Assembly (NCBI GenBank): GCA_028289015.1
Contig: JAQGHC010000030.1
Coordinates: 1 to 35,817, forward strand
Origin: Candidatus Saccharimonadota bacterium
GTDB taxonomy: Bacteria > Patescibacteriota > Saccharimonadia > Saccharimonadales > Saccharimonadaceae
Direction of reading: 5' to 3'
Length of the DNA stretch: 35,817 nucleotides
Part shown: piece after piece, positions 20,950-26,840 of the stretch
How the letters are laid out: every line of letters begins with the position of its first letter
Position numbering within the stretch: the stretch's first letter is position 1
Notes under the pieces: model-generated
What the model saw: the letters and a program-made list of their open reading frames with translations, nothing else
What the model was told of the DNA's origin: nothing
Databases searched by the model: none
Program-made: the position numbers and the translations under genes

Positions 20950-21444
20950 ATGAATCGTCACACGGGGTTTACAATTGTCGAACTGGTTATAACGCTTGCT
21001 ATAATGACCATCCTGATAGTCCTGTCAGTGGTCGAGCTTAGCGATAGCCTCGCCCAGGCGCGTGATGAAGAGCGAAATTCCGACGTTGAAAATATCATCA
21101 TGTTCCAAGAAAACGCGTATAATAGGTCGACGGACCGCTCCTATTTTCACAACGCAACCGTTTCCACCCCTGCACTGATTGAGTCAACGTATACAAACAT
21201 TGATCGAGATAATTTACGAGCGCCTGGCGTCGTCTCGCCGAACTATAGTCTAGTCATTGCTACAAATACGACCCAGACAGCCACTGGCGTACTGCCACAG
21301 CCTACCGCGACAACATACGTTTATCAGCCACTTGAAGCAGATGGAACAATTTGTGATGACGCAGCCTCGTGTCGTAAATTCAATATTTATTATCGAGAAG
21401 AGTCGACAAGCACCACGATAATGAGAACGAGCAGAAGCCAATGA
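20950..21444 (+). CDS. Type IV pilin-like prepilin (minor pilin)
   Basis: A 164-aa prepilin with a short leader MNRHTG, the prepilin-peptidase site G6|FTIVE with E at +5 (E11), and a hydrophobic N-terminal helix (FTIVELVITLAIMTILIVLS). The soluble part has a Cys pair (CDDAASC) near residues 137-143 that could form the D-region disulfide. It is the first of three overlapping prepilin genes; its TGA overlaps the next ATG (ATGA). Minor pilins start or tune pilus assembly. It diverges strongly from the two major pilins after the first helix. Confidence 0.88.
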   Translation: MNRHTGFTIVELVITLAIMTILIVLSVVELSDSLAQARDEERNSDVENIIMFQENAYNRSTDRSYFHNATVSTPALIESTYTNIDRDNLRAPGVVSPNYSLVIATNTTQTATGVLPQPTATTYVYQPLEADGTICDDAASCRKFNIYYREESTSTTIMRTSRSQ

Positions 21445-21827
21445 TAAAACACAATCTACAATCAGGCTTTTCTGCTGTTGAACTTTTGATCAGTTTATTC
21501 ATTGCCGTTGCTTTTATTGGTGCAGGTTATCAGCTATATTCAGTCATCATTAAGGATGGAAGCGAAGCTCGCCTGCGCGCTCGGGCGAATAATATAGCCT
21601 ACGAAAACCTACGCTACTACTCTCCCCAGGTTACTGATCCCTGCACGGCGTTCACTCCATCTCCAGCCCCCGTCCTGCCAAATCCTAGCGGCCTGTCAAA
21701 TGCTACCTTGACTGTGACAATCAGCTGTCCATACGCTAACCCAAATCCGACATCAAAAATATCTGTAACTGTATTATATGGAACACCACAACAAGAGGTC
21801 ACACATGCACTATTCGTCAATAAATAA
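21441..21827 (+). CDS. Type IV pilin-like prepilin (second minor pilin)
   Basis: A 128-aa prepilin with leader MIKHNLQSG, cleavage at G9|FSAVE and E at +5, then the hydrophobic helix FSAVELLISLFIAVAFIGAG. The remainder is short, with two Cys (C in DPCTAF and ISCPYA) able to form a disulfide. It overlaps the upstream gene by 4 nt and the downstream gene by 23 nt, so translation of all three is probably coupled. The exact role in the pseudopilus tip cannot be assigned. Confidence 0.85.
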   Translation: MIKHNLQSGFSAVELLISLFIAVAFIGAGYQLYSVIIKDGSEARLRARANNIAYENLRYYSPQVTDPCTAFTPSPAPVLPNPSGLSNATLTVTISCPYANPNPTSKISVTVLYGTPQQEVTHALFVNK

Positions 21828-22617
21828 TCAAACGCGCCAATCTACTACTGGCTTTACTCTTATCGAGATGTTGATCATCGCACCGATTGTCATCCTTGCA
21901 ATTGGAGGTTTTATCGCGGTTATCGTTACCATGGTAGGTAGCGTCCTTGCGACGCGTGACCAAAGCATCATGACCTATGAAAGCCAAGACACATTGAGTC
22001 GCATCGAAGATGATGTCAGGCTATCTGCACAATTTTTAGCGACGACAGGTACGCTCATCACCCCTCAGGGAAGTGACAATAACTTTGCAGGAACCGCGGC
22101 GTTTACAAATGGTACGGATAAACTCATACTATATACACTTGCAACCACCAAAAATCCAGCGGATTCCACGCGTGAATTAGTCTATTATGCCAACCAGCCA
22201 AACTTATGCAGTGGCGCTAAAATGTATAACAAAGTATATTTCAATAAAGTCATCTATTTTATTAAAAGCGGCTCGCTTTGGCGAAGAACGGTAATGCCAG
22301 ACTATAATACGAACGTGACGGTGGATAGCGAAACAGTATGCGCAGCTCCCTGGCAGCAAAATAGCTGCAACCCAGGCTATGCGTCCGCGACACGATGCAA
22401 AACTAATGACATCGAGCTCATGAAAAATGTTTCAACTTTCGCTGTTGAATACTACTCAAGCTCAAGCAGTTCGACCATTATCAGCCCTGAAAATGCCACG
22501 ACTGCGACTACGATCAAAGTATCCGTCACAGGCAACAAAAACACCGCCGGACTCCCCTACACTATGACGCAGTCCACCCGTGCAACTCGACTTAATCTTG
22601 CCGTTGATGTGCCATAG
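21805..22617 (+). CDS. Type IV pilin-like prepilin (PulJ/GspJ-like, third minor pilin)
   Basis: A 270-aa prepilin with leader ending STTG, cleavage before FTLIE, and a hydrophobic helix with a Pro (MLIIAPIVILAIGGFIAVIV). The body RDQSIMTYESQDTLSRIEDD is typical of the large minor pilins (PulJ/GspJ class): long helix, then beta-rich domain with several Cys. The ATG at 21805 is preferred over 21778 because AGAGGT precedes it and the leader length becomes normal. It overlaps the preceding gene by 23 nt. Transcription then reaches about 115 nt of spacer with the major pilin promoter. Confidence 0.85.
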   Translation: MHYSSINNQTRQSTTGFTLIEMLIIAPIVILAIGGFIAVIVTMVGSVLATRDQSIMTYESQDTLSRIEDDVRLSAQFLATTGTLITPQGSDNNFAGTAAFTNGTDKLILYTLATTKNPADSTRELVYYANQPNLCSGAKMYNKVYFNKVIYFIKSGSLWRRTVMPDYNTNVTVDSETVCAAPWQQNSCNPGYASATRCKTNDIELMKNVSTFAVEYYSSSSSSTIISPENATTATTIKVSVTGNKNTAGLPYTMTQSTRATRLNLAVDVP

Positions 22618-22659
22618 AGACACGCAAATATCCACCTCCTGATTGTGCACTGAAAATGC

Positions 22660-22688
22660 TTGTGCTAACTAAAACATCGTAGTATAGT
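22660..22688 (+). promoter_or_regulatory. Promoter of the first major pilin
   Basis: -35 TTGTGC (22660-22665), 17-bp spacer, -10 TATAGT (22683-22688). Upstream AAAATGC is shared with the second pilin promoter. It gives a leader of about 37 nt carrying a G6 tract at 22713-22718. Confidence 0.65.
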
Positions 22689-22712
22689 ACGTCATATATA
22701 ACTAATAGGTAC

Positions 22713-22718
22713 GGGGGG
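22713..22718 (+). promoter_or_regulatory. G6 tract in the first major pilin leader
   Basis: GGGGGGCAAAAAAA stands where a ribosome site would be, though 13 nt before the ATG. The second pilin has GGGGGCAAA directly before its ATG. The G-run probably serves as ribosome site. Confidence 0.4.
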
Positions 22719-22731
22719 CAAAAAAATTAAC

Positions 22732-23181
22732 ATGAGCATTAAAAATATGAGCAGAGAACGCGGTTTTACAATCGTTGAACTTTTGATCGTTATCGTGGTC
22801 ATCGGTATCTTAGCTGCAATCACAATCGTTGCTTACAACGGCGTACAGAACCGTGCACGAACAACAACTAACCAAGCGAATGCGCAAGAAGTACAAAACA
22901 AAGCAGAAGTCTACGCTGCCGACACCGGCAATGGCGTGTTCCCTGCAAACGGCACGGCATTTGAAGCAATCGTTGCCACCGACACCGCTGCATTATCTCC
23001 AAAAGTTAAGCTTTTGCTTGGCACAGTCCTTCCCGCGTCGGGAACTCCGACAGTCCTCATCTACCAACAATGTGGTACAGATGGCGCCAAAGTCGGCTAT
23101 TATGACCACGTAACCCCAGGAGTAGTATACCTTTACGCAGGTAACGCAACTTCTGCGACTACATGCGCAGCAGCAGCTTAA
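22732..23181 (+). CDS. Type IV major pilin, copy 1
   Basis: A 149-aa prepilin with leader ending RERG, cleavage before FTIVELLIVIVVIGILAA, E at +5, and the Saccharibacteria-like continuation AYNGVQNRARTTTNQANA. The globular part has two Cys (QQCGTDGAK and TTCAAAA) placed to make the C-terminal D-loop disulfide. It is a tandem paralogue of the next gene: the first helix is nearly identical in protein and DNA, while the exposed parts differ. Major pilins polymerise into fibres for attachment, twitching or DNA uptake. It has its own promoter and terminator, so it is expressed separately from the minor pilins. Confidence 0.93.
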   Translation: MSIKNMSRERGFTIVELLIVIVVIGILAAITIVAYNGVQNRARTTTNQANAQEVQNKAEVYAADTGNGVFPANGTAFEAIVATDTAALSPKVKLLLGTVLPASGTPTVLIYQQCGTDGAKVGYYDHVTPGVVYLYAGNATSATTCAAAA

Positions 23182-23200
23182 TCTAGTTACCGCTCATTGC

Positions 23201-23240
23201 AATAGAACCTTTCGAATCATGCGAGAGGTTCTATTTATAT
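23201..23240 (+). terminator. Terminator of major pilin copy 1
   Basis: AATAGAACCTTTCG and CGAGAGGTTCTATT form a 14-bp stem with one G-U pair and a 7-nt loop, followed by TATATT. Confidence 0.75.
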
Positions 23241-23253
23241 TCAGAAGCCCTAT

Positions 23254-23275
23254 GCCGCCCTCAAGTGGCGGCTTT
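23254..23275 (+). terminator. Second hairpin after major pilin copy 1
   Basis: GCCGCC / GGCGGC stem with a CTCAAGT loop and a short TTT tail; may back up the terminator upstream. Confidence 0.5.
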
Positions 23276-23360
23276 CATCGTATCTAAAATGAGACATTAA
23301 GCTTTGATGCTGCCGACATGCAATAATACCTACTATTAAATGAAAAACTATGCAAAATGC

Positions 23361-23389
23361 TTGTCCTTAAGCGGGCCAGTCGGTATACT
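23361..23389 (+). promoter_or_regulatory. Promoter of the second major pilin
   Basis: -35 TTGTCC (23361-23366), 17-bp spacer, -10 TATACT (23384-23389), preceded by AAAATGC as in copy 1. The promoter was duplicated along with the gene. Confidence 0.7.
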
Positions 23390-23415
23390 GGAAGAGGTTT
23401 AAAAAATAAATTCTA

Positions 23416-23420
23416 GGGGG
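23416..23420 (+). promoter_or_regulatory. G5 tract / ribosome site of the second major pilin
   Basis: GGGGG followed by CAAA and ATGAGC; the only candidate ribosome binding site for this gene. Confidence 0.45.
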
Positions 23421-23424
23421 CAAA

Positions 23425-23880
23425 ATGAGCTTACAAAATATAAACAAAGAACGCGGCTTTACAATCGTTGAACTTTTGATCGTTATTGTGGTCATTGGTA
23501 TCTTGGCGGCGATTACAATCGTTGCTTACAACGGCGTACAGAACCGTGCACGTACAACAACCAACCAGGCAAACGCTGGTGAACTACGCGACAAGGCAGA
23601 AGTATACTCAGCCGACACAGGTAACGGCGTCTTCGGTACAGCTGCAACGCTAGAAGGCCTTGCTGCAACTGATACTGCTGCACTATCGCCAAAGCTTAAG
23701 GGCTTACTTAACGAAGTGGCGCCTACGACTCTTCCAGCTAGCGGGACTCCAACGGTGATTTCATACCACATTTGTGGCACAACTGGTGCAAAAATTGGCT
23801 ACTGGGATCACGTTGCAGCCGGAGTACGCTACCTTGCAGCTGGTACGGCGCCTACTGATCCTCTAACTTCTACTTGCTAA
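23425..23880 (+). CDS. Type IV major pilin, copy 2
   Basis: A 151-aa paralogue of the previous gene with leader ending KERG and the same FTIVELLIVIVVIGILAA helix and AYNGVQNRARTTTNQANA continuation. The globular domain keeps the layout (AEVYSADTGNGVF, ASGTPTVISYHICG, GYWDHVAAGVRYLAAG) and ends in Cys, so the disulfide with the earlier Cys is conserved. The tandem pair may give two fibre types or allow antigenic change by recombination. The start is fixed by the G5 tract 5 nt upstream and the conserved leader. Confidence 0.93.
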   Translation: MSLQNINKERGFTIVELLIVIVVIGILAAITIVAYNGVQNRARTTTNQANAGELRDKAEVYSADTGNGVFGTAATLEGLAATDTAALSPKLKGLLNEVAPTTLPASGTPTVISYHICGTTGAKIGYWDHVAAGVRYLAAGTAPTDPLTSTC

Positions 23881-23965: not shown

Positions 23966-25243
23966 CTACTGGTCACTTGGCAAAGGAAACTCTTGAACAA
24001 ACAGTTTTACCTCTTCACGCAGCCGAGACAAAGCAGTTTCGTCAGTGCGCACGTCAACAGCCCGCTTCATCCAATCAGCGATCAGTGGCATATGCTCTTC
24101 TCGCAACCCTCTTGTCGTGATGGCCGGCGTCCCTAGGCGGATACCGCTAGGCGTAAACCGCGGCAATAGATCATCAGGTGTACTGTTCGCGTTTAACGTC
24201 AGGCCAATTTTATCCAATGCGATTTCAACCTCCTTGCCATTAATGCCAAAGCTGCGATAAACATCAGCTAGAATCAAGTGATTACTTGTACCCCCAGTAA
24301 TTAAGTGGAACCCTTTTTCTTGCATAGCAGCTGCTAAAGCAGTCGCATTTTTAACAATTTGAGCCGCGTATTCCTTAAATTCTGGTCGAAGTGCTTCCTC
24401 GAAAGCGACAGCCTTAGCTGCAATCACGTGCATGTGCGGCCCACCTTGCATGCCAGGAAAAACCGCTCGGTCGATTAGTGTCGGTATATTTGCTAACGTC
24501 TTTTCAGGAGCCTTCAATGGATTGCCTACGACACCGCGAGACAGTATCGTGCCGCCGCGAGGCCCACGAAGCGTTTTATGCGTCGTGGTCGTAATGACAT
24601 GAAAACCATAATCCAAAGGATTTTTTGCAACGCCACCGGCGATCAGCCCAGCAATATGCGCCATGTCAGCCATCAATAATGCACCAACTTCGTTACCGAT
24701 TGCAGCAAACCTCTCGTAGTCCAGTTCGCGAGGATACGCGCTAAACCCGGCTAAGATAATTTTTGGCTTGTGTTCTAATGCTAGCGTGCGAAGCTCGTCA
24801 TAATCAATTTCACCCGTTTCGATATCTTTCATTTTATAGCGAACAAAATTGTACAGCTGCGCACTACGCGTTACAGCCGCACCGTGCGTCAAATGCCCAC
24901 CGTGCGACAGATCCATCGCTAAAACAGTGTCACCAGGCTCTAGCCATGCGCTGTACACCGCTTCGTTTGCCGGTGCGCCTGAATGCGACTGCACGTTCGC
25001 GTGATCTGCACCAAACAATAGCTTAGCGCGGTCAATAGCCAATTGCTCAATTTGATCGGTAAATTCTTGGCCACCGTAATAGCGTCTGCCTGGGTATCCT
25101 TCGGAATATTTATTAGTTAGCACGCTGCCTAGCGCATTTAGTACGTCACGCGATACGTAATTTTCACTTGGAATCAACTCTAAGCCATCGCGTTGTCGCT
25201 GTTGCTCGCCTGCAATTAAATCTTGGATTTGGGTATCTATCAT
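23966..25243 (-). CDS. glyA: Serine hydroxymethyltransferase GlyA
   Basis: This PLP enzyme converts serine and THF to glycine and 5,10-methylene-THF, feeding FolD. The 425-aa length is typical. Motifs are LIPSENYVSRDVL and TNKYSEGYPGRRYYGG near the N-terminus, VQSHSGAPANEAVY, MDLSHGGHLTHG, MADMAHIAGLIA, the PLP-lysine motif TTTTHKTLRGPRGG, and near the C-terminus LGTPAITTRGL. The usual SGSQAN is replaced by SHSGAPAN, as is often seen. AGGAGAA stands 8 nt before the ATG. Its promoter faces the murA promoter and shares the inverted repeat at 25265-25303, so the two may be co-regulated. Confidence 0.96.
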   Translation of the reverse strand: MIDTQIQDLIAGEQQRQRDGLELIPSENYVSRDVLNALGSVLTNKYSEGYPGRRYYGGQEFTDQIEQLAIDRAKLLFGADHANVQSHSGAPANEAVYSAWLEPGDTVLAMDLSHGGHLTHGAAVTRSAQLYNFVRYKMKDIETGEIDYDELRTLALEHKPKIILAGFSAYPRELDYERFAAIGNEVGALLMADMAHIAGLIAGGVAKNPLDYGFHVITTTTHKTLRGPRGGTILSRGVVGNPLKAPEKTLANIPTLIDRAVFPGMQGGPHMHVIAAKAVAFEEALRPEFKEYAAQIVKNATALAAAMQEKGFHLITGGTSNHLILADVYRSFGINGKEVEIALDKIGLTLNANSTPDDLLPRFTPSGIRLGTPAITTRGLREEHMPLIADWMKRAVDVRTDETALSRLREEVKLFVQEFPLPSDQ

Positions 25244-25264: not shown

Positions 25265-25303
25265 AGTATATCACTACTCATGATATATCGTATGTGATAT
25301 ACT
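25265..25303. promoter_or_regulatory. Divergent glyA / HTH-murA control region with TGATATAY repeats
   Basis: AGTATATCAC (25265-25274) and GTGATATACT (25294-25303) are perfect inverted copies 19 bp apart; a third copy, ATGATATATC, lies between (25280-25289). Each outer copy also reads as an extended -10 (TG-A-TATACT), one for glyA on the minus strand and one for murA on the plus strand, 7 nt before the murA ATG. The repeats could be operator half-sites for the HTH domain of the MurA fusion, or only two facing promoters. Confidence 0.6.
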
Positions 25304-25310
25304 AGCACCT

Positions 25311-26840
25311 ATGAGCAATGATGATTATAAAGTAAAAATTGGTTCATTAATTCAAGAAGCGCGCATTGGCCGAGGGCTGACTCAAACCGAACTCGCGAAG
25401 GAACTTAACACTAGCCAAAGTGCTGTCAATCGCATCGAAAAAGGCGGTCAGAATATCAGCCTAGAAATGATTGCGCGCATTAGCGACGTCCTTAACAGCA
25501 ATATTGTCACTCTTAATCAATCTGGAAAAATTAACTTTCGCATTAATGGCGGTAAAAAGCTATCTGGCAGTATCGAAGTAAAGACTAGCAAAAATGCAGC
25601 CGTTGGGCTACTTTGCGCGGCATTGCTTAACAAAGGCAAAACCACCCTTCGTCGCGTAGCTCGAATCGAAGAGGTTAATCGTATTATTGAGGTCCTACAG
25701 AGCATTGGCGTCAAAACCCGCTGGATTAACGACACGAATGACCTTGAAATCACTCCACCAAAACGACTTGAACTTGATAAAATGGATGAAAACGCAGCCA
25801 AGCGGACTCGTACGGTCATTATGTTTTTAGGCCCGCTACTCCATCAGTACGATGATTTCAAACTACCGTTCGCTGGCGGATGCAACCTTGGAACGCGTAC
25901 GGTTGAACCGCACATGTCAGGTCTTGCCCCATTTGGTCTGCATGTTGTCGCAAAAAGTGACTACTACCACGCGACGGTCAGTAAACAATCTGTTAAACGA
26001 ACGATCTTACTTACCGAACGAGGTGATACAGTAACGGAAAATGTTATCATGGCCGCCGCACTTTATGACGGCGTCACAATGATTCGCAACGCTAGCCCCA
26101 ATTATATGGTTCAGGACGTCTGTTTTTACTTGCAGAAACTAGGAGTGAAGATCGAAGGCATTGGCACGACCATACTAACAATTCATGGCAAAAAAACAAT
26201 TAATCAAGATGTCGAATATTTCCCAAGTGAAGATCCCATTGAGGCAATGAGCCTAATTGCAGCCGGTGTCGTTACTGATTCAGAAATCACCATTTCTCGT
26301 GCGCCAATCGAATTCATCGAACTCGAACTTGCCATCCTCGAGGAAATGGGGCTTAAATACGAACTTGGCAAAGAATATATCGCCCGCAATAAAGCGACGA
26401 GACTTGTTGACGTTCATTTAAAGCATTCTAAGCTTGTTGCACCGAAAGATAAACTACACAGTATGCCCTTCCCTGGTGTAAATATGGACAACTTGCCGTT
26501 CCTTGGCCTGGTTGCGACAGTCGCCAAAGGCCGCACACTTGTTCACGACTGGTCGTACGAGAACCGGGCAATTTACTTCACCGAGCTTAGTAAACTGAAC
26601 GCTCAAATCGAACTTGTTGACCCGCATCGCGTTTATATTACCGGACCAACAAAATGGAAGCCTGCCGATGTTGTTGCCCCACCAGCACTACGCCCATCGG
26701 TTGTCATTCTACTTGCGATGCTTGCGACACCTGGAACGTCAGTGCTACGCGATGTGTATTCTATTAACCGTGGATATGAAGATTTTGCTAACCGCCTTAA
26801 TACCCTTGGTGCCGATATCGAAACGCTTCAAGACTTTTAG
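25311..26840 (+). CDS. murA: HTH (Xre-type) - MurA fusion: UDP-GlcNAc 1-carboxyvinyltransferase
   Basis: A 509-aa protein, about 80-90 longer than usual MurA. Residues 8-64 are an Xre/HTH_3 domain (IGSLIQEARIGRGLTQTELA, NTSQSAVNRIEKG), the class of lambda-repressor-like DNA binders. Residues 73-509 are MurA, the first committed peptidoglycan enzyme (PEP + UDP-GlcNAc). Conserved parts are KTSKNAAVGL (K94/N95, like K22/N23 of E. coli), the PEP-binding cysteine C191 in FAGGCNLGTRTVEPH, and DNLPFLGLVATVAKG. The catalytic Cys is present, so it should be active and fosfomycin-targetable. The join is in frame with no stop. A leaderless start 7 nt after an extended -10 overlaps possible operator repeats, which suggests autoregulation. 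Confidence 0.93.
   Translation: MSNDDYKVKIGSLIQEARIGRGLTQTELAKELNTSQSAVNRIEKGGQNISLEMIARISDVLNSNIVTLNQSGKINFRINGGKKLSGSIEVKTSKNAAVGLLCAALLNKGKTTLRRVARIEEVNRIIEVLQSIGVKTRWINDTNDLEITPPKRLELDKMDENAAKRTRTVIMFLGPLLHQYDDFKLPFAGGCNLGTRTVEPHMSGLAPFGLHVVAKSDYYHATVSKQSVKRTILLTERGDTVTENVIMAAALYDGVTMIRNASPNYMVQDVCFYLQKLGVKIEGIGTTILTIHGKKTINQDVEYFPSEDPIEAMSLIAAGVVTDSEITISRAPIEFIELELAILEEMGLKYELGKEYIARNKATRLVDVHLKHSKLVAPKDKLHSMPFPGVNMDNLPFLGLVATVAKGRTLVHDWSYENRAIYFTELSKLNAQIELVDPHRVYITGPTKWKPADVVAPPALRPSVVILLAMLATPGTSVLRDVYSINRGYEDFANRLNTLGADIETLQDF

Follow-up and report, generated by a model that had tools for sequence, protein, structure and literature searches.

A MurA enzyme carrying an Xre-type DNA-binding domain, and a predicted operator at its own promoter, in Patescibacteria and Actinomycetota

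The MurA protein encoded in the window (the whole stretch of 35,817 nucleotides analysed here, contig 21 of an 846-kb genome that is 93.6% complete and has Saccharibacteria as its nearest named relatives) is fused to an Xre-type HTH domain, and this HTH-MurA is most probably a working MurA that regulates its own gene by negative feedback through a dyad at the murA promoter. Such autoregulation, proposed earlier from the window alone, is well supported by three lines of comparative evidence, namely conservation of the dyad, its loss together with the HTH domain, and covariation of the recognition helix with the operator bases. The circuit appears to be widespread in Patescibacteria and to have been passed, together with its operator, to Actinomycetota. 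Patescibacteria are organisms with small genomes that, as far as known, grow attached to other bacterial cells. The ways in which they adjust wall synthesis to supply are poorly understood in general; in the present case, control very probably resides in the enzyme itself.

The HTH-MurA protein and its active site

The in-frame fusion of an Xre-type HTH to a MurA with an intact catalytic Cys, reported in the preliminary description, was confirmed. A single ORF of 509 amino acids is matched by Pfam in both domains (EPSP_synthase/MurA at residues 79-496, E 7.8e-45; Table 1), and E. coli C115 corresponds to Cys191. The protein also matched the NCBIfam MurA subfamily NF006873 above its cut-off (E 1e-97); for the equivalog TIGR01072 its score falls below the cut-off. 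In an AlphaFold2 model (pLDDT 89.9, pTM 0.82) four HTH helices occupy residues 3-20, 25-32, 36-43 and 51-61 and are joined to the MurA domain by a short, poorly ordered linker (residues about 62-73). The top structural matches of this model were solved MurA structures. No EPSP-synthase-family protein other than HTH-MurA was matched in the 93.6% complete genome.

Table 1. Features of the glyA-murA region of the window
Feature	Position	Strand	Basis
glyA (serine hydroxymethyltransferase), divergent neighbour	23966..25243	-	Pfam SHMT, E 8e-155
TGATATACT, probable extended -10 of divergent glyA	25265..25273	-	Lies outside the dyad
Predicted operator, 7-4-7 dyad TATATCG-TATG-TGATATA, 18 bp	25284..25301		Conservation alongside the fusion; not found in unfused relatives; single occurrence in the genome
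murA -10 box TATACT, TG extension at 25295-25296	25298..25303	+	Sequence and constant spacing in relatives; predicted promoter
HTH-MurA gene, 509 aa, stop codon included	25311..26840	+	ORF, Pfam, NCBIfam, solved-structure matches
HTH_3 (Xre/Cro type) domain, residues 14-65	25350..25505	+	Pfam, E 1.9e-14
Recognition helix and N-cap, residues 35-43 (SQSAVNRIE)	25413..25439	+	Residue 35 covaries with operator base 5
MurA domain, residues 74-509; catalytic Cys191 codon at 25881-25883	25530..26837	+	Pfam, alignment, model

Besides the catalytic Cys, the E. coli MurA residues K22, N23, R91, R120, D231, D305, R331, R371 and R397 are kept. All ten positions, including C115, are invariant among 149 fused sequences, except for gaps in the row of one broken gene. 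In the HTH domain, S35, Q36, S37, E43, G45 and N48 are invariant in 58 aligned sequences. The enzyme part and the DNA-binding part are both under sequence constraint. Since its catalytic residues are invariant, HTH-MurA looks like an active enzyme and, at the same time, a predicted autorepressor.

Two positions of the active site differ from E. coli. Across the whole subfamily, fused or unfused, another residue stands in place of the DLRA Asp (E. coli D369), and the window carries PALRP in place of the canonical DLRA (26685-26693). The position of E. coli K160 is occupied by Glu throughout the HTH-MurA subfamily, which is often the only MurA found and thus has a partly rebuilt active site. We did not treat the change at D369 as decisive against MurA function, because in many genomes no other MurA was found.

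The predicted operator and the fused HTH domain

Three TGATATAY repeats had been noted upstream of murA, two of them as an inverted pair, and had been read as one possible operator covering the -10 boxes of both murA and glyA. All three octamers are present (plus strand at 25281 and 25295, minus strand at 25273), but the conserved element is the inner dyad and not the pair singled out at that time. A single operator over both -10 boxes was not confirmed. The outer TGATATAC (25273-25265, minus strand) was rejected as an operator half, being the probable extended -10 of glyA, and the inner dyad persists where glyA is missing. The plus-strand TGATATAT at 25281 shares merely TATAT with the left half of the dyad. 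A hairpin of the DNA strand was also considered and rejected, scoring no better than shuffles.

The right half of the dyad overlaps the extended -10 of murA (TGATATACT), and the left half sits in the spacer between -35 and -10. The -10 box ends only 7 nt ahead of the ATG, and many relatives keep this distance, so that a near-leaderless murA transcript is likely. The exact operator pattern occurs at one site in the genome, the one before murA, all other near-matches carrying 3 mismatches. The circuit therefore looks dedicated, and the idea of a large regulon was rejected.

Upstream of the gene in relatives a single element is conserved, TATATCR-NNNN-TGATATA, and in most loci its end lies 8-13 nt ahead of the start codon. 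Under a uniform operator criterion (at least 9/10 fixed positions and 5/7 arm pairs, within 140 nt) the dyad was detected upstream of 137 of the 157 distinct genes for HTH-MurA (Patescibacteria and Actinomycetota together), and upstream of 0/16 genes of this MurA subfamily that lack the HTH. The expectation that the repeats are conserved in relatives keeping the fusion was thus borne out for the inner dyad. Control rates were 0/16 for canonical murA, 8/316 for other ORFs and 1.24% for shuffles. Among 103 distinct patescibacterial genes 88 have at least 12 of 14 fixed bases (59 are perfect), a value of 12 being reached by less than 2% of shuffles. At TGATATA sites before murA, 6-7 of the 7 left-half bases were present in 69/84 cases, compared to 0/99 at sites elsewhere in the same loci. 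Chance or promoter bias as source of the dyad is ruled out by the shuffles, the other ORFs and the other TGATATA sites. In Actinomycetota the dyad is altered symmetrically in both arms (TATCTCA-NNNN-TGAGATA).

In the tree, unfused genes comprise a basal set and several nested losses of the HTH. Of 8 supported independent pairs, about 6.4 on average show loss of the operator together with the HTH; the reverse was never observed (median p 0.03). The recognition helix is wrecked in three fused genes (L144, L167, L220), all of them without operator. In two further fused genes (L133, L138), which seemed to have no operator within 80 nt, it lies farther upstream and retains 13/14 bases. The 20/157 fused genes that fail the uniform criterion include a group of about nine related genes (L031, L103-L108, L110, L130) with an intact helix and a decayed left operator half. 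The actinobacterial L167 (genome G385) is frameshifted, giving two overlapping matches, and is possibly a decaying copy; no better MurA copy was present in this genome among the matches listed.

The order of genome G190 exhibits two main operator forms, TATATC...GATATA with TSQS helices and TATAGC...GCTATA with TTQS helices. A lone TAQS helix (L212) is accompanied by TATAAC...GTTATA. Across 154 sites, G in the left arm was found with Thr-35 in 13/14 and with Ser-35 in 5/139 cases (Fisher p 5e-14, kinship ignored). Of residues 6-71, residue 35 has the highest normalised mutual information with operator base 5 in both arms. Four supported independent pairs in the tree differ in residue 35, two of which switch together, none in the opposite direction and two without a switch. 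Three of the Ser-35 genes with G (L103, L130, L136) look like mis-picked sites; L200 and L211 are true exceptions. No single residue was found to account for the difference at base 4 between the phyla (TATATC and TATCTC). The matching residue of the 434 repressor, which we take to be Thr27, contacts a thymine methyl and would fit the covariation. These comparisons are strong evidence that the fused HTH binds the predicted operator. They also give a direct handle on specificity, and the predicted DNA code can be checked in vitro, making culture of the organism unnecessary.

According to this reading, two HTH domains would bind the 18-bp dyad, whose half-site centres lie 11 bp apart, about one helical turn. 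Binding as a dimer is suggested by the symmetry of the dyad, and repression by the position of the site on the promoter; MurA is usually described as a monomer. HTH-MurA on the dyad would hinder RNA polymerase at the murA -10 and so block its own near-leaderless promoter, by which the level of the enzyme would be held through negative feedback. With less confidence, we suggest that DNA binding may be tuned by whether the MurA domain is open or closed, depending on substrates or product, with UDP-GlcNAc, PEP and UDP-MurNAc as candidate ligands.

Alternatively, the repeats might simply be the extended -10 boxes of two promoters that face away from each other, the HTH acting elsewhere or being idle. 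The right half, TGATATA, does coincide with an extended -10, and the -10 of glyA accounts for the outer copy, but the left half is no murA promoter element and is nevertheless conserved at fixed spacing, also without glyA and in Actinomycetota. As it also disappears with the HTH and covaries with it, we regard this explanation as very improbable. Slightly less improbable, though still unlikely, is that HTH-MurA binds the dyad and activates murA, e.g. by aiding polymerase at a promoter without -35. A consensus scan found no good -35 for murA at the window locus; in several relatives, however, TTGACN lies directly upstream of the dyad, and a site over -10 and spacer is in the position of a repressor. 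The least probable of these readings is that some other Xre regulator recognises the dyad, with the HTH of MurA as a passenger. Other small Xre proteins are encoded in some of these genomes, and in a few the operator pattern occurs away from murA. Against this, the dyad is lost upon loss of the fused HTH though the gene stays, the operator bases follow residue 35 of the fused HTH itself, and the gene appears to have reached another phylum along with its operator.

A hand count in 61 genomes gave 45 distinct exact operator sites, 23 of them directly before murA, and a single site for the reversed-pattern control. The about 22 exact operator-like sites away from murA are clustered in few genomes (G010, G015, G034 and others) and perhaps belong to another Xre regulon.

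Distribution and transfer of the fusion

Nearly all matches in the 61 closest genomes include the HTH and continue to the MurA end, and the fusion was found elsewhere in Patescibacteria, too. The order of G190 has the fusion in about 32 of 98 genomes and an unfused close relative in 8. Among Actinomycetota, 16 of 296 sampled genomes carry the fusion, which also occurs in Knoellia, Janibacter, Actinocatenispora and Streptomyces otsuchiensis. HTH-MurA is the only MurA found in six Knoellia/Janibacter genomes and in G450 and G512. In most larger actinobacterial genomes it stands beside an ordinary MurA.

In the MurA-domain tree a single clade (100/99) holds all HTH-MurAs of Actinomycetota; it is the sister of the family of the window and is placed inside Patescibacteria. 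The simplest reading is that gene and operator appear to have been transferred once from the patescibacterial side to Actinomycetota. Sister placement alone is no proof of direction; the direction is indicated by the next outgroups, which are all patescibacterial. Saccharibacteria known so far have their hosts in Actinomycetota. The apparent move would be a rare instance in which the host phylum obtained a core wall enzyme, together with its operator, from a lineage of epibionts. A phage or plasmid origin was considered and rejected, the two fused matches labelled as plasmids being actinobacterial replicons of 2.8 and 11.9 Mb. Among the phage matches listed there was no fused copy.

The glyA neighbour and comparison with known systems

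The preliminary description had also proposed that murA is linked to glyA as a feedback between wall precursor and one-carbon metabolism. The adjacency of the two genes stood up: of 97 patescibacterial loci with sufficient flank, 70 have a divergent glyA. A general wall-to-one-carbon circuit was not supported, with a divergent glyA in 0/16 actinobacterial and 0/8 unfused loci. We regard it as rather unlikely that the dyad also controls glyA, which would couple MurA to the metabolism of serine/glycine (or D-alanine). In the window the gap between the genes is 67 nt and, judged from the sequence, a protein bound there would lie over the -35 region of glyA, so that control of glyA is possible at this locus. 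In many relatives the gap exceeds 100 nt, making an effect on glyA less likely there, and the dyad persists at loci lacking glyA.

A D-alanine link would fit the absence of a match to Ala_racemase_C in the window genome and in 52 of the 61 genomes searched, a search that was positive in only 8 of 14 control genomes. D-Ala-D-Ala ligase (Ddl) is present in the window genome. Since the GlyA of chlamydiae is able to make some D-alanine (PMC3935232), the divergent glyA may supply it here, and glyA and murA could be a wall-precursor pair rather than a one-carbon link, which we give as a lead only.

In its fold and catalytic residues HTH-MurA resembles canonical MurA of E. coli and Acinetobacter (1uae, 5u4h), which lacks an HTH, shares about 30% identity with it and differs at D369 and K160. 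BirA and PutA are active biosynthetic or catabolic enzymes that regulate transcription of genes of their own pathway. They have other DNA-binding folds and other enzyme domains, and their ligand switch is proven, unlike the hypothetical one of HTH-MurA. To our knowledge, there is no cell-wall enzyme among regulators of this type. BzdR of Azoarcus consists of an Xre-type HTH and a shikimate-kinase-like domain (PMC3602430). Like HTH-MurA, it carries the HTH N-terminally on a metabolic enzyme fold. In BzdR this fold is the effector-binding part and the protein binds a promoter, as predicted for HTH-MurA; however, its enzyme activity is lost, it senses benzoyl-CoA and it controls a catabolic cluster (PMC3602430). 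The MurA part of HTH-MurA, in contrast, is an enzyme fold with intact catalytic residues, and its predicted target is its own gene.

Streptomyces coelicolor has a second MurA, MurA2 (SCO5998), next to acnA (SCO5999) (PMC12161575). The actinobacterial HTH-MurA gene of G527 (L182) is divergent to a gene for a 909-aa aconitase. Because of this common aconitase neighbour, MurA2 probably belongs to the HTH-MurA group. The passages of that account dealing with SCO5998 mention DmdR1 and SigB, and neither an HTH nor self-regulation is mentioned in them (PMC12161575). A search of the literature available to us found no paper on the function of the HTH-MurA fusion; public databases may well show the domain pairing as such.

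A row of prepilin-like genes lies at 20950-23880 of the window. Two pilin-like neighbours in this row (22732-23181 and 23425-23880) have nearly the same N-terminal halves, indicating a tandem duplication.
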